The notes under the pieces are model-generated. The model did not search any database and was not told the DNA's origin. It saw nothing but the letters and a program-made list of their open reading frames with translations. From positions 1 to 34,651 of the forward strand of contig PWJC01000030.1 in the NCBI GenBank assembly GCA_003560165.1: 34,651 bases of DNA. The letters are read 5' to 3'. This document shows positions 8,158 to 22,387 of the stretch, one piece after another (position 1 is the stretch's first letter; each line of letters starts with the position of its first letter). The stretch comes from Bacteroidales bacterium. Its GTDB lineage: Bacteria; Bacteroidota; Bacteroidia; Bacteroidales; UBA7960. The translations under genes and the position numbers were made by a program.

Positions 8158-10005
8158 TTATTTGGTTTTTTTGAAGGTCCCGATGATGGAGTTCAGCATT
8201 TTTTCGGTCACGCTGGCTCCTTCACCAAGGGAAAACGCAATGTTCTGAACCATTTTCAGGTTTTCGTCGATCACCTCGTTTACCCGGTTCACGATCTCCT
8301 CCTGCCTGACCTCGGCAACGTACATGTCGCGGAAAACCCCGCCCACCACCTTCCCGGGCTTTAATGAGTAAATGCTTACGTTCAGCAGCCGCTCGCCGTG
8401 ATGAACGTCTTTGCCTACAATGTTCTCATCGTTTTCGAGCACATAGGTAAACAGGTTGTAGATGGTGTGTGGCAACAGGCTCTTCAGGTCGGCCCCCGAC
8501 AGCCCCGGAATCACTTCGTTGATCATTTCGGCGTCCTCGCCCAACACCTTGATGAAGCTGTTGTTCGATTCAATGACCTTTAGCTTGTCATCTACAATAA
8601 CCGCTGCCGAAGGAAGATTTTTAAGCAGGGCGGAAGTGGTTTCGGAAGTTTGCCTGATCTTCTGGTTTTCCTCCACCAGGTTTTTTTCTTTCTCCAATAG
8701 GCTTTCCTGCTGTTTTTTCAGTTTCTCGTTGTTGTTTTTCAGGGTTTTGATGTACTCCTGCTTTTTTTTCAGCGAATAATTCAGGCAGATGTCGGGTTTG
8801 CTGAGCCCCTGGCTGATGGAGGCGGCAAAATCGCGGCAACTCCTGAAACCGCATGCCGTGCAGGCGGCATTGTCGTCGGGGCTTTTGCCCAGGCTTTTCA
8901 TGATCTCCTCTACCTGTTCGCTGTCGGGAGCTGGCAGACGCTGGTCGTCGCGGACAAAGCCCCGGCTCAGATCGAGTTGCAGGTAAGTCTCCATGTCTTT
9001 TTCCCACTGTTTTTTGTCAAAATCCTTCAGCCGTTTGTGGGCATAATCGACCACCATGGTGCGCCTGAGGTATTTGTTCGAACGTTCGGTGTTGCCGGGT
9101 CCGGTCAGGCAGCCTGCATGGTAGAACGCATTGAAATGCTTCTTCAGGTTCTCGGTATGACGGTTGAACTCTTCGGCCGCATCCATCATCTTGTTCCTCC
9201 CCTCCACGGTGATCACCTTTCCGTGCATCAGGCTTTCGTTGAGCCCGGCGGCATAAACGATGCCGTTGCTAATGGGGTAAAGCGAACCCAGGTATCCGAT
9301 GGGGGGGTCAAAGTCCGAATACTCCACCCTGGATTCCTTGATCTGGAAACGGTCGAACAACTCCCTGAGTTCGCGAAAGGTGAGCACGGCATCTACCTTT
9401 CCCTCCCTGTCATAGAGCCCGGCTTCGTGCTTTGCCGACAGGCATGGCCCGAAATAGACCACCCCGACGTCTTTTCCGAATGCCTTGCGTACCACCCTGG
9501 CAGTGGCTGTCATGGGGGTCACGATGGGGGCCAGGTTGTCGGTAAGTCCGGGATAGAATTTTTCAATGCAGGAGACCAGGGTGGGGCAGTTGGCCAGCAA
9601 ATAATACTTGCCCCTGAAGTCGGACAGCAGTTCGTGGTATTTGCGGGCCACCAGGTCTACCCCAAAAGATACCTCGTTGACGTAGTGAAATCCCAGGGAG
9701 CGGATCATCTCCACGAACTTGCGGTAATCGGTAATGTCGGGGAATTCACCACTGATGGTAGGGTCGACAATGGCGGCCAGTTTCCGGCCAGACTGCAGCA
9801 TGTCAACCGTTAGTTCCAGTTCGCTGGTGTGCGAAACGGCATTGGACGCACAAACCCACAGGCAACTGCCACAGCCGATGCAGCGGTCGTGGTCCACAAC
9901 CGGCATTTCGTCACTGCTTCGGATCAAGATTGCTTTTACCGGGCAAGTCCTGATGCAGGCATAGGATTTGGTGCAGCGCGTGTGGTCGATCTCAATGATT
10001 CGCAT
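8158..10005 (-). CDS. Sensory [FeFe]-hydrogenase-like protein with PAS domain (group C type)
   Basis: A 615-aa cytoplasmic protein. Order: ferredoxin-like domain with two 4Fe-4S motifs (residues 11-21, 42-52); hydrogenase large-domain homologue (about 70-345); FeS domain CX2CGX4C...C (C382, C385, C390, C407); coiled coil (412-455); PAS domain (about 458-560); short helical tail. The first cluster motif is CTKSYACIRTCP, with Ser14 where the second Cys is expected. The H-cluster loops are altered: L1 is LANCP (C140; the proton-transfer Cys is Asn), L2 is FGPC (C188), and L3 is FYHAGCLTGPG, with C299 but no upstream Cys (Tyr295/His296 instead). One 4Fe-subcluster ligand thus appears lost. It is probably a redox or H2 sensor rather than a catalyst, acting through the adjacent phosphatase. 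It is clearly paralogous to the kinase-fused sensor at 14798. Confidence 0.88.
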   Translation of the reverse strand: MRIIEIDHTRCTKSYACIRTCPVKAILIRSSDEMPVVDHDRCIGCGSCLWVCASNAVSHTSELELTVDMLQSGRKLAAIVDPTISGEFPDITDYRKFVEMIRSLGFHYVNEVSFGVDLVARKYHELLSDFRGKYYLLANCPTLVSCIEKFYPGLTDNLAPIVTPMTATARVVRKAFGKDVGVVYFGPCLSAKHEAGLYDREGKVDAVLTFRELRELFDRFQIKESRVEYSDFDPPIGYLGSLYPISNGIVYAAGLNESLMHGKVITVEGRNKMMDAAEEFNRHTENLKKHFNAFYHAGCLTGPGNTERSNKYLRRTMVVDYAHKRLKDFDKKQWEKDMETYLQLDLSRGFVRDDQRLPAPDSEQVEEIMKSLGKSPDDNAACTACGFRSCRDFAASISQGLSKPDICLNYSLKKKQEYIKTLKNNNEKLKKQQESLLEKEKNLVEENQKIRQTSETTSALLKNLPSAAVIVDDKLKVIESNNSFIKVLGEDAEMINEVIPGLSGADLKSLLPHTIYNLFTYVLENDENIVGKDVHHGERLLNVSIYSLKPGKVVGGVFRDMYVAEVRQEEIVNRVNEVIDENLKMVQNIAFSLGEGASVTEKMLNSIIGTFKKTK

Positions 10006-10554: not shown

Positions 10555-10572
10555 TTGTGAAATTTGTATCAA
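10555..10572 (+). promoter_or_regulatory. Possible degenerate Rex-type site upstream of hydC
   Basis: TTGTGAAATTTGTATCAA has one perfect Rex-like half (TTGTGAA) and, after 4 bp, a poor second half (GTATCAA against TTCACAA, 4 of 7 matching). It lies 16-33 bp before the hydC start codon. Rex is encoded downstream in the same gene set, so regulation is plausible, but the symmetry is weak. Confidence 0.25.
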
Positions 10573-10587
10573 CATAAACAGGGCGTC

Positions 10588-11067
10588 ATGCAGGATTCAT
10601 TCGATCTGGCGAAGACCTTTGAGCAATACCCGAATCACCGGCGGGAAGATCTGATACCCTTATTGCAAAGCGTACAGGATGCCCGGGGGTATTTGTCTGA
10701 AGACATCATTTCGGCCGTGGGTAATTACCTCGGCATCAGCATAAACAAGATTTATGGGGTTGCTACTTTTTACGATAATTTCCGATTCGGTCCGGTGGGC
10801 AGGTACCATATCCGGGTCTGCCATGGCACGGCCTGTCATGTGGGTAGGGCCGAAACCCTGATCAGGGAACTGGAAAAGTTGTTGAAGATCGCCAATGGGG
10901 AAACAGACAAGGAAGGGCTGTTCAGCCTCGAAGTGGTCAGTTGCCTGGGCGCCTGCGGACTGTCTCCCCTGATAGAGGTAAACCAGGCCTATTACAGCCA
11001 CATGAATCCGGAAAAGCTGAGGGAGCTTCTGGAGTCATTCAGGGAAGAAGAAAATATACAATCATGA
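10588..11067 (+). CDS. hydC: NuoE-like [2Fe-2S] subunit of trimeric [FeFe]-hydrogenase (HydC)
   Basis: A 159-aa subunit with a helical N-terminal bundle (DLIPLLQSVQDARGYLSE, typical of NuoE/HydC) and a thioredoxin-like domain with the four [2Fe-2S] ligands C78, C83, C119 and C123 (VCHGTACHVG and SCLGACGLSP). In HydABC/HndABCD hydrogenases this subunit passes electrons to or from the flavin subunit. The ATG at 10588 is preferred over an in-frame TTG at 10564. Its stop overlaps the hydB start as ATGA (11064-11067), indicating coupled translation. The NuoE family would also fit formate dehydrogenase or complex I, but the adjacent hydB and hydA fix the assignment. Confidence 0.93.
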   Translation: MQDSFDLAKTFEQYPNHRREDLIPLLQSVQDARGYLSEDIISAVGNYLGISINKIYGVATFYDNFRFGPVGRYHIRVCHGTACHVGRAETLIRELEKLLKIANGETDKEGLFSLEVVSCLGACGLSPLIEVNQAYYSHMNPEKLRELLESFREEENIQS

Positions 11068-13013
11068 CCTTACGAACTTCCAGTGAAATCAGGGAATTTC
11101 TGATCAACCAGGTTTTACTCGACCCACAGAGGGATACCGGGGCCGGACTGAAGAAGGAATTGTCCTACATCGGTGGCGAACGGGTGCACCAACCGCTGAT
11201 TTACGTCGGGATGGCCAGTTGCGGCCGGATTGCCGGTGCCGGGGCCACCTACCAGGCCATCGCCGCTTACCTGGCCGAACACGGTCATCAGGCAACCCTG
11301 GTGGAAGGCGGCTGCGTAGGCTATTGCGCAGCGGAACCCCTGGTCGATATCCAGCTGCCCGGAAAAGCCAGACTCTCCTTTTCCGGTGTCACGTCCGAAA
11401 AAGTAGGCCCCCTGCTGGATGAGGTGTTGAACGATCACCTGCCCGACCTCCCCCTGATCGGGCAGTACAAAAGTGCCCTGCTGCAACATTGGGAGAAGGT
11501 CCCATTTGTTAACGACCATCCGTTTTTTGTTCACCAGCGCCGCATATTGCTCGAACACTGCGGACTGATCGACCCTGGGTCGGTGACTGCCTTCATCGCC
11601 AGGGGCGGATACTGGTCATTTGCCGATTCCATTTCGAGGCATACTCCCGCCCAGGTATGCGAACTCGTTGAGAAAAGCGGATTGGCCGGCCGCGGCGGCG
11701 GCGGCTACCCTACCGGCCAAAAATGGGCCACTGCCCTCCGGACCCCTGGCGACCAGAAGTTTTTTGTCTGCAATGCCGTGGAGAGCGACCCGGGCAGCTA
11801 CATGAACCGGGCCATTATCGAGAGCAACCCCCATAGGCTGATCGAAGCATCCCTGATCTCGGCCTATGCCATGGGCGCGGGCAGGGTATATCTTTTCATC
11901 CGTGAAGAATTCACCCTTGCCAGGCAGCGGCTCGACCAGGCCATTGCCCAGGCGAGGGAGTACGGCCTTATCGGGCACAACATCCTGGACTCGGGCGTCA
12001 ACATCGATGTGGTGGTAAAAAGCGGGGCCAGGGCCTTTGTATGCGGCGAGGAAACCGCACTGAATAACAGCATCGAAGGGAAAAGGGCCATGCCATCATC
12101 CAAACCTCCTTACCCTGCCGAGAAAGGCTTGTGGGACAAACCCACCATTGTCAACAATGTGGAAACCCTGTTCAATATACCCCTGATCATGAAAAACGGC
12201 CCGGAGTGGTTCCGCAGCCTGGGTACACAGCAAAGCAAGGGGACCAAGCTCTTTACCCTTTCGGGGAAGCTGAAGCGTTATGGAACGGTGGAAGTGGAGA
12301 TGGGCATGAGTTTTCGCGACATTGTGGACAAGATCGGCGGGGGGCTGAAAGACGGACTTACCTTCAAAGCCATTGTCCTTGGCATCAACAGCGGCAGTTA
12401 CATCACCTCCGAAACACTGGACAAAAGAGTGGATTTTGAAGACCTCAGGCAAATGGGTTCCGCTTTGGGCAGCGGAGCCTTTGTCGTGCTCGACCAGGGG
12501 GTCTGCATGGTTAACCTGGCCAGGTTCTTTACGGCATTTTTCAAAAAGGAAAGCTGTGGCAAATGCATCCCCTGCCGGGAAGGCACCGCCAGGATGCTGG
12601 AGGTCATGGAACACGCCACAAAAAGGCCGACCGAAAAAAACTCATTTCAAACCCTGGAACGCTTCAAGGGAGTGATGCAGCTAAAGGGCCTGGCAGCCGT
12701 TTTGCAGGATACTTCACTCTGTTCGTTGGGAAAATCTGCCCCCAATTCCATCATGAACACACTCAAATACTTTAAGGAAGAATTCGATAGCCATATTTTT
12801 GAAAGGGAATGTCCGGCCGGGGTATGCACCGATCTGAGAATATTCCTGATCGATGTGGACGCCTGTACCGGCTGCACCGCCTGTTTTAAAAAATGCCCGG
12901 TCGACGCCATCATCGGCTCCCCGCGCTACCCGCACTTTATTATCGGGGACAAATGCATCGGCTGCGGGAACTGTTATGAAGCCTGCAAGTTCAATGCTGT
13001 TGTCATCAAGTAG
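11064..13013 (+). CDS. hydB: NuoF-like flavin subunit of trimeric [FeFe]-hydrogenase (HydB)
   Basis: A 649-aa subunit that binds FMN and NAD(H). Order: thioredoxin-like domain with C53, C84 and C88 (only three obvious ligands); NuoF core with glycine loop GRGGGGYPTGQKW (about 209-221), NAVESDPGSYMNR (237-249), and CGEETALNNSIEG (327-339); 4Fe-4S site C498-C501-C504 plus C553; two C-terminal 4Fe-4S ferredoxin motifs (C601-C611, C631-C641). This architecture is that of HydB/HndC. Odd point: canonical NuoF reads NADE at the flavin/NADH site, whereas here it reads NAVE, so a usually conserved Asp is Val. The start at 11064 overlaps hydC by 4 bp; hydA follows after 20 bp. Whether the complex bifurcates electrons between NADH and ferredoxin cannot be told from motifs alone. 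Confidence 0.94.
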   Translation: MTLRTSSEIREFLINQVLLDPQRDTGAGLKKELSYIGGERVHQPLIYVGMASCGRIAGAGATYQAIAAYLAEHGHQATLVEGGCVGYCAAEPLVDIQLPGKARLSFSGVTSEKVGPLLDEVLNDHLPDLPLIGQYKSALLQHWEKVPFVNDHPFFVHQRRILLEHCGLIDPGSVTAFIARGGYWSFADSISRHTPAQVCELVEKSGLAGRGGGGYPTGQKWATALRTPGDQKFFVCNAVESDPGSYMNRAIIESNPHRLIEASLISAYAMGAGRVYLFIREEFTLARQRLDQAIAQAREYGLIGHNILDSGVNIDVVVKSGARAFVCGEETALNNSIEGKRAMPSSKPPYPAEKGLWDKPTIVNNVETLFNIPLIMKNGPEWFRSLGTQQSKGTKLFTLSGKLKRYGTVEVEMGMSFRDIVDKIGGGLKDGLTFKAIVLGINSGSYITSETLDKRVDFEDLRQMGSALGSGAFVVLDQGVCMVNLARFFTAFFKKESCGKCIPCREGTARMLEVMEHATKRPTEKNSFQTLERFKGVMQLKGLAAVLQDTSLCSLGKSAPNSIMNTLKYFKEEFDSHIFERECPAGVCTDLRIFLIDVDACTGCTACFKKCPVDAIIGSPRYPHFIIGDKCIGCGNCYEACKFNAVVIK

Positions 13014-13033
13014 AGCAAACCCCAAATCCTGCC

Positions 13034-14761
13034 ATGGAATTCAAGATCGAAGTAAATAACCGACAGATTAGCGTAAGGGAAGGAGACAGCCTGCTGACGG
13101 CCTTGCGCGGGCATGGGTTCAAAATCCCCACCCTTTGCCATATGAACCGTTTTTCACCAACGGGTGCCTGCCGTCTATGTGTGGTTGAGGTGGAAGGCAA
13201 GCGAGATCTGATCACATCCTGTTCCTATCCGGTTGAAGAAGGCATGAAGGTAATGACCAATTCGCAGCGGGTAATCAGGGCAAGAAAGTCTCTGGTAGAG
13301 CTTTTGCTGTCGAATCACCCCGACGATTGCCTCTACTGCCAGCGTAACGGAAATTGCGAGCTGCAGTGGCTTGCCGAGGAGATGAATGTGAGGGAGCGAA
13401 AATATTTCGGGGAAAAGAATACCGCTTTCCCCGACTACTCCAGTACGGCTGTGGCCAGAGAGCCTGCCAAATGTGTTCTTTGCAGCCGCTGTGTGCGCAT
13501 TTGCGAGGAAGTGCAGCTGGTGACGGCCGTCGATTTTATATCGAGGGGCAACCAGACAAAGGTCAACAGTGCGTTTCATAAGGGCCTCAATGTGTCCAGC
13601 TGCATCCACTGCGGGCAATGTGTTCAGGTATGCCCTACCGCCGCCCTGCTCGACATCTCCCACATTGAGAAAGTGCAGGCGGCCCTGGGCAAGGCAGAGC
13701 TCGAGGTGGTCTTTTTCATCAGCCCCTCGGTGGCTGCTTCGGTGGCCGAACACTCAGGCCTCAGGCCCAAACAGGACGTCATGGGCCGCATGGTCGCCGC
13801 ATTGAAACGCTGCGGGGCCTCCCGGGTGTTCGACCTGGGTTATGCCAACGACATCAATATATTGGCCGAGGCCAGGTTGCTGGCAGAGCGGATACGCAAT
13901 AAGGAAGCCCTTCCATTGCTCTCGTCGTGCTGCCCGGCATGGGTGCGTTACGCCGAGGAGTTCAGGCAGGAACTGCTGCCCCGGCTGGCAGGGGTCAAAT
14001 CGCCCCAGCAGATACTGGGCAGCCTGATCAAGACCAAATGGGCCGAAGATGCCGGCCTGAAAGCCGACCATGTGTTCACGGTATCGGTAATGCCCTGCCT
14101 GGCCAAAAAATACGAGGCTTCCCGTGAGGAAAACACCCACAAGGGAGTCTCTGAGGTGGATGCCGTTTTAACGGTCAGGGAGTTCTTCCGCCTGCTCAGA
14201 AGCTTTGGCCTGGAAATTGAGAGCATCGAAGAGGAAGCAGCCGACCCGCCTTTTCACATTTGCTCGGCCTCGGCGTTTAAGCTCGGCTATTCGGGCGGTA
14301 AGGCCGAAGCCGTGGCCAGGGAAACCTTCAGGCTGCTGGGCGGCTCGCCCGCTGAGGGGTTCAGGTTCAATTTGCCAAAAAATACCGCCCTTAAACGCGA
14401 AACCAAAGTCAGCATCGGCGACATCCATATCGGCTTTGCCTGGGCAAGCAGCATTTCGGAAGCGGAGGCTTATTTAAACACCCTGGCCGAAGAAAACCGC
14501 AGTGACATCCATTATGTGGAAGTGATGGCCTGCCTGGAGGGTTGCGCGGGGGGAGGCGGACAGCCTGTCAGCCGGGGCTTTGAAAAAACCAGGGCCAGAA
14601 GGCGGTTGTGTGCCGACATGGAAAAGAACCAGCCGTTCAGGGCGGCAGGTGAACATCCCGGACCTCTGGCCTGCTTTACGGATCACCGCCTGGATACCGG
14701 CAACGAAAGGGCTAATGGGTGGTTAAAACCAAGTTTCAAAAAAAGGAAGGGCCCCCTGTAA
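13034..14761 (+). CDS. hydA: Catalytic [FeFe]-hydrogenase subunit (HydA, group A type)
   Basis: A 575-aa catalytic subunit interconverting H+ and H2. Cluster sites in order: [2Fe-2S] C35, C46, C49, C63; His-Cys 4Fe-4S H95, C99, C102, C108; 4Fe-4S C147-C157 and C190-C200; H-cluster motifs L1 SSCCPAW (C299, C300), L2 VMPCLAKKYE (C355) and L3 VMACLEGCAGGGGQ (C500, C504). All H-cluster ligands and the proton-transfer Cys are present, so it should be active. By hand alignment to Clostridium pasteurianus CpI, which shares almost the same numbering, E279 and R286 are kept but E282 is Leu and S319 is Ala, two positions of the known proton path. The segment LGYSGGKAEAV replaces the usual FGATGGVMEAA. 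It lacks the extra C-terminal [2Fe-2S] domain reported for Thermotoga HydA. Confidence 0.95.
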   Translation: MEFKIEVNNRQISVREGDSLLTALRGHGFKIPTLCHMNRFSPTGACRLCVVEVEGKRDLITSCSYPVEEGMKVMTNSQRVIRARKSLVELLLSNHPDDCLYCQRNGNCELQWLAEEMNVRERKYFGEKNTAFPDYSSTAVAREPAKCVLCSRCVRICEEVQLVTAVDFISRGNQTKVNSAFHKGLNVSSCIHCGQCVQVCPTAALLDISHIEKVQAALGKAELEVVFFISPSVAASVAEHSGLRPKQDVMGRMVAALKRCGASRVFDLGYANDINILAEARLLAERIRNKEALPLLSSCCPAWVRYAEEFRQELLPRLAGVKSPQQILGSLIKTKWAEDAGLKADHVFTVSVMPCLAKKYEASREENTHKGVSEVDAVLTVREFFRLLRSFGLEIESIEEEAADPPFHICSASAFKLGYSGGKAEAVARETFRLLGGSPAEGFRFNLPKNTALKRETKVSIGDIHIGFAWASSISEAEAYLNTLAEENRSDIHYVEVMACLEGCAGGGGQPVSRGFEKTRARRRLCADMEKNQPFRAAGEHPGPLACFTDHRLDTGNERANGWLKPSFKKRKGPL

Positions 14762-14797
14762 AGCGACGCTGTTTGCTGATTGCGGCCGAATGAATAC

Positions 14798-16855
14798 ATG
14801 GATATGACAGAGCAGAAGAAAAATGAGATCATCTATACCGTAAAGGACCGCTGCAAGGTCTGCTATACTTGCGTACGCGAATGCCCGGCTAAGGCCATTA
14901 AGATCAACAACGGACAGGCCGAGATTATCCCGAGCCGCTGCATTGCCTGTGGCAACTGCATCAGGGTGTGCTCCCGCGATGCCAAGATGTTTGCCTTTTC
15001 GATCGACAAGGTGAAAAAGCTTCTCGACACCGGGCAACCGGTAGCCGCGATCGTAGCACCCAGTATTGCCGGAGAATTCACCGACATTGCCGATTACAAG
15101 CACTTTGTGGGCATGATCCGGGCACTGGGCTTCGACTATGTGAACGAGGTGGCTTTCGGCGCCGAGCTGATCGCCAACAAATACAAGGAACTGCTCGAAT
15201 CAAAGCCCGACCGTCCGCTGATCTCCACCAGCTGCCCTTCCATTGTCAGCTACGTGGAAAAACACCATCCCCAGATCATTGATTCTCTGGTACCCCTGGT
15301 TTCGCCAATGATCGCCACGGCCAGGGTGCTGAAAAAAATGCACGGCGACCACCTGAAGATCGTGTTCATTGGTCCCTGTATCGCCAAAAAGGTGGAAGCC
15401 GGTGAAGAGCAGTTCAGGGGACTGATTGACGAGGTGATCTCATTTGTGGAGTTGCGGCGCATGTTTGCTGAGAAGAGCCTGTCCGAGAACAATGTGGAGG
15501 CTTCGGAGTTCGATCCGCCCATAGCCGGGAAGGGATCCATCTTTCCCATCAGCGGAGGGATGCTTCAAACCATCGACCTGGAAGAAGACTTCGTGAAGGG
15601 CGACATTGTGGTGGCCGAGGGCAGGCACGACATCATCGAGGTTTTGCGTGAATTTGAGGAAGGACACCTGGAAGCCAAGATGTTTGATCTGCTTTGCTGC
15701 AACGGCTGCATCAACAGCCCGGGAATGAGCCACAAACATCAGTTTTTCAACAAGCGGAAAAACATTTCCAATTTTGCCAAAAGGAAATTCGACCGCCTCG
15801 ATCTGAATCGCTGGCAGGAAGACCTGGCCACTTATTTGCAGCTGGAACTCGGAAGGAGTTTCCAGGCCGACGATCAGCGTTTTCCCAACCTGCCCTGTGC
15901 CGGGGAGATTCGTGAGGTGCTCAGGGAATTTGGTAAAAAGGAGCCGGAAGATGAACTCAACTGCGGTGCCTGCGGCTACGACACCTGCCATGAGCATGCC
16001 GTGGCCATATTGCAGGGGCTGGCCGAATCGGAGATGTGCCTTCCGTATACCATCGACAAGCTCCATGAGTACATCCTGGAGCTGGATGTGTCGAACCAGA
16101 AACTGGCCTCCACCCAGGCTGCGCTGAAGCAAAGCGAGAAACTCGCTTCCATGGGTCAGCTTGCTGCAGGTATTGCCCACGAAGTGAACAACCCCCTGGG
16201 AGTCGTGATCATGTACAGCCACATCCTGCTCGACGAAATGGACCCTGCCTCGCCCCTTTACCGTGACCTGAAGCTGATTGTGGAGCAGGCCGACCGTTGC
16301 AAGAAAATTGTTGGCGGCCTGTTGAACTTTGCCCGCAAAAGCAAGGTGACCATCGACGAGGTAAATGTGAAGCAATTGATAAAGAATGCCCTCAAGGGGG
16401 TCATTCTCAGCCAGTCTATCGAATTGCAGATTGCCGTCAATACCAGGGACCCCATGCTGGAATGCGACCACGACCAGATGGTGCAGGTGTTTTCCAATTT
16501 GTTTAAAAACGCGGTGGATGCCATGCCCGGAGGGGGCAAACTCTCTGTTTTGATCAATGACGCCGCCGGAAGCGGGCAGTTGGAATTCCAGGTCAGTGAC
16601 ACCGGCTCCGGAATTGAGAAGGAGAATATGGACCGGATGTTCGAGCCCTTTTTTACCACCAAGGAAACCGGCCAGGGCACGGGACTGGGCCTTCCCATTA
16701 TTTACGGCATCATCAAGATGCACCGGGGAAGCATCCGGGTGGAATCGAACAACGACCCCCAAAAAGGCCCCACAGGAACCACATTTTTTGTTTCCCTGCC
16801 GCGCAAGGCCAGCGACACCTCCGATGAAAATGCCGGTGAACCCATTACCGGATAA
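14798..16855 (+). CDS. Sensory [FeFe]-hydrogenase-histidine kinase fusion
   Basis: A 685-aa soluble protein. Order: two 4Fe-4S motifs (CKVCYTCVRECP and CIACGNCIRVC, residues about 23-58); hydrogenase-like domain (about 75-345) with L1 STSCP (C146), L2 IGPC (C194), and L3 LLCCNGCINSPG (C300, C301, C304); FeS domain (C389, C392, C397, C414); coiled coil; and a complete histidine kinase: H461 in AAGIAHEVNNPLG, N-box NLFKNAVDAM, VSDTGSGI, and TGQGTGLGLPI. The proton-transfer Cys of L1 is Ser, as expected for a sensor rather than a fast catalyst. No PAS and no membrane segment. It is placed 36 bp after hydA and followed by two receiver proteins. The likely role is to sense H2 or cellular redox state and autophosphorylate. 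ATG 14804 is an alternative start. Confidence 0.92.
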   Translation: MDMTEQKKNEIIYTVKDRCKVCYTCVRECPAKAIKINNGQAEIIPSRCIACGNCIRVCSRDAKMFAFSIDKVKKLLDTGQPVAAIVAPSIAGEFTDIADYKHFVGMIRALGFDYVNEVAFGAELIANKYKELLESKPDRPLISTSCPSIVSYVEKHHPQIIDSLVPLVSPMIATARVLKKMHGDHLKIVFIGPCIAKKVEAGEEQFRGLIDEVISFVELRRMFAEKSLSENNVEASEFDPPIAGKGSIFPISGGMLQTIDLEEDFVKGDIVVAEGRHDIIEVLREFEEGHLEAKMFDLLCCNGCINSPGMSHKHQFFNKRKNISNFAKRKFDRLDLNRWQEDLATYLQLELGRSFQADDQRFPNLPCAGEIREVLREFGKKEPEDELNCGACGYDTCHEHAVAILQGLAESEMCLPYTIDKLHEYILELDVSNQKLASTQAALKQSEKLASMGQLAAGIAHEVNNPLGVVIMYSHILLDEMDPASPLYRDLKLIVEQADRCKKIVGGLLNFARKSKVTIDEVNVKQLIKNALKGVILSQSIELQIAVNTRDPMLECDHDQMVQVFSNLFKNAVDAMPGGGKLSVLINDAAGSGQLEFQVSDTGSGIEKENMDRMFEPFFTTKETGQGTGLGLPIIYGIIKMHRGSIRVESNNDPQKGPTGTTFFVSLPRKASDTSDENAGEPITG

Positions 16856-20959: not shown

Positions 20960-22387
20960 ATGATCTACCATCCCGAAAAATACCGAATTGAAGACAAGCG
21001 GATGCAGCCGTTTATCGACCCCGGCGAAATATGGGAGATCATCAGAAATACCAGGGCCGACAAACAAAGGGTCAGGGACGTCATACAGGCTTCGCTCGAC
21101 AAGAAGCGGCTTTCGCTCGGGGAAACGGCTGTGCTGATCAATGCCACAGATCCCGGTTTGATCGAGGAGATCAAGGAAGGGGCACGCAGTCTCAAGGAAA
21201 AGGTATACGGTGAACGCATCGTGCTGTTCGCCCCCCTGTATGTGGGCGATCTGTGCACCAACAATTGTCAGTACTGCGGATTTCGCTCTTCGAACAAGGA
21301 GACCAAAAGGGTCACCCTGAACAGGGAGGAACTGATCCTGGAAACAAGATCCCTCATCGATCAGGGGCATAAACGGCTGATCCTTGTTTACGGGGAGCAC
21401 CCCAAATACACTGCCGGATTCATTGCCGAAACGGTGGAGACCGTTTACGGTGTGAAACACAAAAACGGGGAGATACGGCGTGTCAATATCAATGCGGCCC
21501 CTTTTGACATCCCCGGGTTCAGGGTGATCAAGGATTCGGGCATCGGTACTTACCAGGTGTTCCAGGAGACCTATCACGAACCCGCCTACAGGAAAGTTCA
21601 CCTTGGCGGGGTAAAGCGCAATTACGACTGGCGGCTTACCTCCCTTGACAGGGCCCAGGAAGCTGGTATTGACGATGTGGGCATCGGGGCATTGTTCGGA
21701 TTGTACGACTGGCGTTTCGAGGTCATGGGTCTGGTCAGGCATGTGAACCATTTCGAGGCCGTGTACAACGTGGGTCCGCACACCATTTCCTTCCCCAGGA
21801 TACAAAATGCCTTTTCGATGGATATCTCCAGAGAGTACCTGGTCAGCGACGGGGACTTTGTCCGCCTGGTCTCCATCCTCAGGCTGGCTGTTCCCTATAC
21901 CGGAATGATACTGACCGCCCGGGAGCCCTCCCACATACGCGATCAGGTCTTGCGTTTCGGCGTGAGTCAGATAGACGGGGGCACCAATCTGGAACTGGGA
22001 GGCTATTCGAAGGGAAAACAGGAGGTACAGGATCTGAGCAAGGGGCAGTTCCAGATCAACGACAACCGTTCGCTGGCCGAGATCATGGACGAACTGATCA
22101 GCTCGGGCTATATCCCCTCATTCTGTACGGCCTGTTATCGTCTGGGTCGCACCGGTGAACATTTTATGGAGTTTTCCGTACCGGGCTTCATCAAAAGGTA
22201 TTGTGCCCCCAATGCCATGCTGACCCTGGCCGAATACCTCGAAGATTATGCCAGCGAAGATACCCGGAAGGCCGGATACAGCCTGATCGAAAAAAAGGTG
22301 GAGGAACTTGCCAAAACCCGGGATACCGGCAAGCTCAGGCAAAAACTCGGGCAGATTAAACAAGGCAAACGAGATCTGTATTTTTAA
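20960..22387 (+). CDS. hydG: [FeFe]-hydrogenase H-cluster maturase HydG (radical SAM)
   Basis: A 475-aa radical SAM tyrosine lyase that makes the CO and CN ligands of the H-cluster. The SAM cluster motif is CTNNCQYC (C99, C103, C106; CX3CX2C), followed by GFRSSNKE typical of HydG/ThiH. The C-terminal cluster motif CX2CX22C (FCTACYRLGRTGEHF...KRYC) is diagnostic of HydG and absent from ThiH. Length is typical. It is preceded by its own promoter and followed 11 bp later by two TM1266-type genes. The partner maturases HydE and HydF are not in this window and must lie elsewhere if the hydrogenase is active. Confidence 0.97.
   Translation: MIYHPEKYRIEDKRMQPFIDPGEIWEIIRNTRADKQRVRDVIQASLDKKRLSLGETAVLINATDPGLIEEIKEGARSLKEKVYGERIVLFAPLYVGDLCTNNCQYCGFRSSNKETKRVTLNREELILETRSLIDQGHKRLILVYGEHPKYTAGFIAETVETVYGVKHKNGEIRRVNINAAPFDIPGFRVIKDSGIGTYQVFQETYHEPAYRKVHLGGVKRNYDWRLTSLDRAQEAGIDDVGIGALFGLYDWRFEVMGLVRHVNHFEAVYNVGPHTISFPRIQNAFSMDISREYLVSDGDFVRLVSILRLAVPYTGMILTAREPSHIRDQVLRFGVSQIDGGTNLELGGYSKGKQEVQDLSKGQFQINDNRSLAEIMDELISSGYIPSFCTACYRLGRTGEHFMEFSVPGFIKRYCAPNAMLTLAEYLEDYASEDTRKAGYSLIEKKVEELAKTRDTGKLRQKLGQIKQGKRDLYF

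Follow-up and report, generated by a model that had tools for sequence, protein, structure and literature searches.

Introduction

The cysteines that hold the cubane of the H-cluster in [FeFe]-hydrogenases are usually taken as fixed, and non-cysteine ligands are known from engineered enzymes. In the canonical loop L3 two of these cysteines form a C-x3-C motif (Cys499 and Cys503 of CpI), and Lys358 of CpI contacts a cyanide of the diiron unit, which depends on this lysine for its stability. According to work cited in one report, an [FeFe]-hydrogenase in which a cubane cysteine was exchanged for histidine remained active with an altered catalytic bias (PMC11376134). Sensory group C enzymes (HydS) carry a C-terminal Cx2Cx4Cx16C iron-sulfur motif (PMC8163306). 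The hfs operon of Thermoanaerobacterium controls fermentation products: deletion of hfsA or hfsB resulted in higher ethanol yield, an effect that requires intact hfsC and hfsD (PMC5707799, PMC11837493). A precedent for group C proteins that seem to be devoid of the H-cluster comes from Hydrogenedentota, whose group C1 proteins were reported without recognisable H-cluster motifs (PMC11406978).

Here we describe a locus in a window of 34,651 nucleotides of DNA from a Bacteroidales bacterium (contig PWJC01000030.1 of assembly GCA_003560165.1) that encodes a HydS/HfsB-type group C sensory [FeFe]-hydrogenase homologue. A preliminary description had proposed that this protein may hold a 4Fe cluster with a histidine or tyrosine ligand, an altered H-cluster or no diiron site, and yet remain a sensor.

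Results

The sensor, whose strand had not been given before, is encoded on the minus strand by a single open reading frame of 615 amino acids (Table 1). Pfam searches detected ferredoxin motifs, the hydrogenase large-subunit domain (PF02906, 1.8e-33) and the C-terminal iron-sulfur motif, in which C382, C385, C390 and C407 show the Cx2Cx4Cx16C spacing. One cysteine of the two N-terminal [4Fe-4S] ferredoxin motifs is exchanged for serine, as had been noticed beforehand: motif 1 reads C11-x2-S14-x2-C17-x3-C21, with TCC as codon 14. The AlphaFold model of the sensor has a mean pLDDT of 78 and matches [FeFe]-hydrogenases (CpI, CbA5H) over residues 1–354 with a best Z of 37.7; a profile comparison with PDB sequences ends ahead of L3. 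The PAS assignment in the window protein is a weak match (E 0.13 for the whole protein, 0.02 for the C-terminal piece); PAS_8 was matched by 29 of 35 relatives at E up to 1, with a best value of 5.7e-6, and the region has mixed alpha/beta secondary structure in the model. A 2Fe-2S ferredoxin gene, the sensor gene and a phosphatase gene are adjacent on one strand.

Table 1. Coordinates of the sensor gene, its functional residues and neighbouring genes in the window.
Feature	Positions	Strand	Remarks
SpoIIE/PP2C-type phosphatase, 394 aa	6926..8110	-	SDGMG, SDGV, DDTS motifs; 47 bp downstream of sensor
HydS/HfsB-like sensor, 615 aa	8158..10005	-	2 ferredoxin motifs, [FeFe]-hydrogenase H-domain, C-terminal FeS, coiled coil, PAS-like
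Coiled coil (residues 408-462) and PAS-like domain (about 464-560)	8326..8784	-	
C-terminal FeS motif C382-x2-C385-x4-C390-x16-C407 (PF04060)	8785..8862	-	
L3 loop F294-G304 (FYHAGCLTGPG)	9094..9126	-	
Cys299, bridging-ligand position (CpI Cys503)	9109..9111	-	
His296 codon (CAT)	9118..9120	-	Site of upstream L3 cluster ligand (CpI Cys499 by homology)
L2: ligand Cys188, then Ala191 three residues on	9433..9444	-	Ala191 replaces diiron-contacting Lys (CpI Lys358)
L1: Asn139 and ligand Cys140	9586..9591	-	Asn139 at proton-transfer Cys position (CpI Cys299)
N-terminal 2x ferredoxin domain, residues 1-58	9832..10005	-	Ser14 in place of second Cys of motif 1
Thioredoxin-like [2Fe-2S] ferredoxin, 86 aa	10035..10295	-	29 bp upstream of sensor
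hydCBA-like genes (NuoE-like, NuoF-like, group A HydA)	10564..14761	+	
Kinase-fused group C paralogue	14780..16855	+	All H-cluster cysteines and Lys
HydG maturase	20960..22387	+	

The translation agrees with the earlier reading of L3 as FYHAGCLTGPG with the bridging Cys299 retained, and the alignment places a histidine where the upstream cubane cysteine had been reported absent. Tyr295 and His296 had both been named as substitutes; of the two, only His296 stands. L3 of the sensor family is one residue shorter than the canonical loop and mostly reads Y-C-x2-C, but some members (L249, L253, L256, L161) have the full-length loop (FYCDGNC, FHCDGSC, FYCDGGC), and since the residue after tyrosine aligns with CpI Cys499 in these members, the missing ligand is position 296. 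Tyr295 was rejected as a ligand because 176 of 180 relatives have Tyr or Phe there, independently of the residue at position 296. The kinase-fused paralogues carry Cys at position 296 without exception (108 of 108), with Cys, Phe, Leu or other residues at position 295; where the latter is Leu, as in L062, L066 and L068, only the second of the otherwise adjacent cysteines is invariant. The window's own kinase-fused paralogue, which reads LLCCNGCINSPG, indeed keeps all ligands, and three Clostridia HydS homologues have CxxxC loops in the same register (MCEGSC, ACNGSC, ACDSSC). The window sensor itself has three of the four H-cluster cysteines, with histidine at position 296.

C146, which had been considered as a possible fourth ligand, falls in a column where most relatives have Tyr, Phe or Leu, which contradicts this role, and no further near-invariant Cys or His that could stand in as ligand was found in the H-domain of members without Cys at position 296. 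Nor do the relatives compared support this form of L3 as standard in active group C enzymes: the kinase paralogues and the three Clostridia HydS homologues keep both the cysteine and the lysine, and conservation of the four H-cluster-ligating cysteines has been reported for sensory enzymes, HydS of Thermotoga maritima (TmHydS) among them (PMC10055695). His296 is found in the window and in all 20 aligned His-type relatives, even though many pairs within the genus are close to saturation at silent sites, so that chance or sequencing error was rejected as an explanation.

The distribution of this exchange was followed in 47 genomes of the window's family, 393 of the order and 395 of the phylum, together with 80 loci from named MAGs of Bacteroidales or Bacteroidota, many of them from sediment samples. 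Distinct homologues with a length of 440 residues or more, 180 in all, were aligned, and in these position 296 is occupied by Cys (86), Asn (37), Asp (27), His (20), Lys (5), Gly (4) or Arg (1); as the set includes close relatives, these are counts of sequences and not of independent events. Residues other than Cys are therefore found in 94 of the 180 sensor homologues, compared with 0 of 108 kinase paralogues. In a tree built without the ligand columns, the sensor family forms one clade (support 100) and His296 is limited to the window's genus (clade support 97), with Asn and Asp in neighbouring lineages; the Tyr/His form is a clade trait, a point that the preliminary description had singled out for checking. 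Position 296 changed state at least 15 times, with at least 6 changes between Cys and other residues, although these are rough counts because the quickly built tree has many weak inner branches. Judged from alignment and tree, loss of the canonical L3 cysteine is a trait of the family rather than a one-off.

The remaining cysteines of the site behave differently. Among the 85 members with Asn, Asp, His or Arg at position 296, C140 is retained in 84 of 84, C188 in 84 of 85 and C299 in 85 of 85, the lone exception being Ser188 in the single Arg296 protein (L226:6458-8365), in which the site is possibly undergoing a third, independent degeneration. Two clades have lost more: in f8 (five sequences with Lys296) C188 and C299 are gone and C140 is replaced by Asp in two, and in f42 (four sequences) all four H-cluster cysteines are missing. 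Both clades retain the ferredoxin and C-terminal iron-sulfur cysteines, and apart from position 14 these sets are kept nearly everywhere in the family.

Further changes affect the surroundings of the diiron unit. Position 191, the third residue after the L2 cysteine and by alignment the equivalent of CpI Lys358, is Lys in 1 of 180 sensor homologues versus 108 of 108 kinase paralogues. The adjacent Lys192, present in 174 of 180 sensor homologues, hardly varies and could compensate for the lost lysine. Position 81 (CpI Ala230) is mostly Asp in the family, and the exchange of the proton-transfer cysteine of L1 for Asn was correctly noted before (N139-C140).

The same alignments yielded several separate observations. 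Ser replaces the second cysteine of ferredoxin motif 1 in the window (9964-9966) as well as in 57 of 180 relatives. The tree implies at least 8 changes at this position, and the exchange may go along with a [3Fe-4S] or Ser-ligated cluster; no association with loss at position 296 was drawn, as there were too few independent pairs. L150 carries two divergent sensor copies on a single contig, one with YCQCC in L3. Four HydA-like proteins encoded near the sensor in f8 and f23 (L181:287-2023, L184:10910-12643, L167:11578-13287, L182:2272-4026) also lack the Lys358 equivalent, with the motifs NCSAAK, SSCTAAK, TSCTASK and PCVGSK at this site.

The gene neighbourhood has been conserved. Of the 162 relatives' loci with enough flanking sequence, 154 have a SpoIIE gene directly beside the sensor gene and in the same orientation, including all 82 testable loci without Cys at position 296, and in the clades short of most or all H-cluster cysteines both the SpoIIE and the ferredoxin gene are adjacent in 9 of 9. 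Pairwise dN was far below dS in all usable pairs, including those from the clades that lost the site (H-domain of L184/L255, 0.17 versus about 2.0; of L178/L179, 0.28 versus 2.2), whereas many other pairs were saturated at silent sites. The sensor domain is under purifying selection even in these clades, and the earlier expectation that the protein is still of the sensor type is borne out.

The genome encodes a full HydE/HydF/HydG set, with HydE and HydF on another contig. Of 80 sensor-bearing genomes nearly all contain HydF and HydG, and the clades that lost the site have these as well as HydE, so absence of maturases was rejected as the cause of site loss. Separately, five f23 genomes (G068, G181, G277, G354, G417; completeness 92–100%) contain one or two canonical HydA each, most of them along with group C proteins, and no HydE, HydF or HydG over the cut-off, which reflects either a binning gap or unusual maturation. 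Because these genomes also carry canonical HydA, their lack of maturases is uninformative on the sensor.

Discussion

We consider it about 50% probable that the window protein descends from an H2 sensor and acts as a redox sensor, in which three cysteines hold a [4Fe-4S] cluster, the fourth iron has a non-cysteine or open site, and the diiron unit is probably absent or abnormal. Its signal is probably something other than, or beyond, H2. In the mechanism that we propose, in which we infer the cluster state, the signal and the direction of control, the cubane of the H-domain would be held on Cys140, Cys188 and Cys299, and its fourth iron would face His296 (Asn or Asp in sister lineages) and be either His-ligated or open, while the diiron subsite would probably be absent or badly held. 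The ferredoxin motifs together with the cubane would sense how reduced an electron carrier is, and the change could be relayed via the C-terminal iron-sulfur domain, the coiled coil and the PAS-like domain to control how active the adjacent phosphatase is.

The retention of C140, C188 and C299 in the members with Asn, Asp, His or Arg at position 296 argues that these proteins still bind a cluster, and loss of the lysine together with the cysteine at position 296 argues that the diiron unit has been lost or altered. Between an altered H-cluster and no diiron site, the latter is somewhat favoured, as the Lys358 equivalent has disappeared from almost the whole family. Asn would be unusual as a cluster ligand, so an open site fits the series better than one new type of ligand. 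The clades without the site retain the module, which indicates that it can be kept without an H-cluster. Genetic work on the homologous hfs operon, where regulation depends on hfsC, also favours this reading (PMC5707799). Several points speak against the redox sensor with a probably missing diiron unit: HydE, HydF and HydG are encoded in the genome and could supply the diiron unit, the bridging Cys299 is strictly kept although a plain cubane might tolerate its change, Lys192 might stand in for the lost lysine, and an [FeFe]-hydrogenase with a cubane Cys-to-His exchange is still active (cited in PMC11376134). Since the clades that lost the site also have maturases and may have other hydrogenases, the presence of maturases does not decide the diiron question.

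The encoded maturases would fit a complete, working H-cluster whose cubane rests on three cysteines and His296 (Asp or Asn elsewhere), so that H2 is still sensed at a shifted potential, as a naturally occurring analogue of the engineered Cys-to-His enzyme. The location beside hydCBA and an intact kinase-type sensor would fit as well, as would the retention of all three remaining cysteines, the bridging one among them, in lineages without Cys at position 296 and the shift in catalytic bias caused by cubane-ligand mutations such as Cys to His (PMC11376134). We nevertheless regard this as unlikely, because the Lys358 equivalent is missing in 179 of 180 homologues, position 81 is mostly Asp and L1 has Asn, and because Asn is frequent at position 296 and sister clades do without the site altogether.

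Still less probable is an H-domain without metal that serves as scaffold or partner, perhaps paired with the kinase-fused paralogue, while the redox work falls to the ferredoxin and C-terminal clusters. The two clades that lack two to four site cysteines, and kept both purifying selection and neighbourhood, are compatible with such a role, but the invariance of three cysteines in the Asn, Asp and His lineages, bar one protein, would be hard to explain without a cluster. Decay of a redundant gene under relaxed selection, once the kinase-fused copy had taken over, could account for repeated ligand loss beside an intact paralogue in the same locus, but is largely refuted by dN values far below dS in all usable pairs, by the SpoIIE synteny and by almost invariant ferredoxin and C-terminal cysteines.

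Within one family, the homologues form a natural series from Cys via Asn, Asp or His to complete loss, with the protein under selection throughout. It is possible, and we propose it tentatively, that the redox sensor of the window belongs to a natural lineage with an H-cluster cubane on three cysteines and His, Asp or Asn, standing between an H2 sensor and H-cluster-free sister clades with the same module, in which a sensor of H2 came to respond to a different redox signal. This Bacteroidales ligand series was not found in the literature searched, which mostly excluded subscription journals. Counts of group C hydrogenases by homology would overstate H2 sensing in Bacteroidales, and two questions become accessible to tests, namely the role of a cubane with a non-cysteine or open site and the way in which sensors switch their signal.

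In the window itself, the kinase-fused paralogue shares the N-terminal half with the sensor (34% identity over the pairwise alignment) but has all cluster cysteines and the lysine, and a histidine kinase domain as output. Cys362, the residue exchanged for histidine in CrHydA1 variants, occupies the same L3 position as His296. These variants, which are cited in PMC11376134, differ from the natural series in being engineered forms of a group A catalytic enzyme with the remaining pocket residues intact. The Hydrogenedentota C1 proteins were recognised by a motif search, and the accessible portion of that study contains neither a stepwise ligand series nor a phosphatase module (PMC11406978). TmHydS has a domain plan like that of the window sensor, and its proton-transfer cysteine is replaced too (Ala131), but its H-cluster cysteines are reported to be conserved and it binds a working diiron site (PMC10055695). 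HfsB of Thermoanaerobacterium (hfsABCD), likened here by its description, is hydrogenase-like with a PAS domain and is encoded beside the serine phosphatase HfsC, as in the window module, but in a Firmicutes host and within one operon that also encodes a HydA2-type hydrogenase. HydS of Ruminococcus albus 7 (pRUMAL01, WP_013483411) resembles the window sensor in domain order, as do relatives on Acetoanaerobium and Monoglobus records, and both R. albus pRUMAL01 and Monoglobus have the gene order of the window, with a 2Fe-2S ferredoxin (NuoE-like), HydS and a SpoIIE phosphatase. The HydS proteins of R. albus, Acetoanaerobium and Monoglobus, however, have CxxxC in L3 and Lys after the L2 cysteine, where the window sensor has His296 and Ala191.
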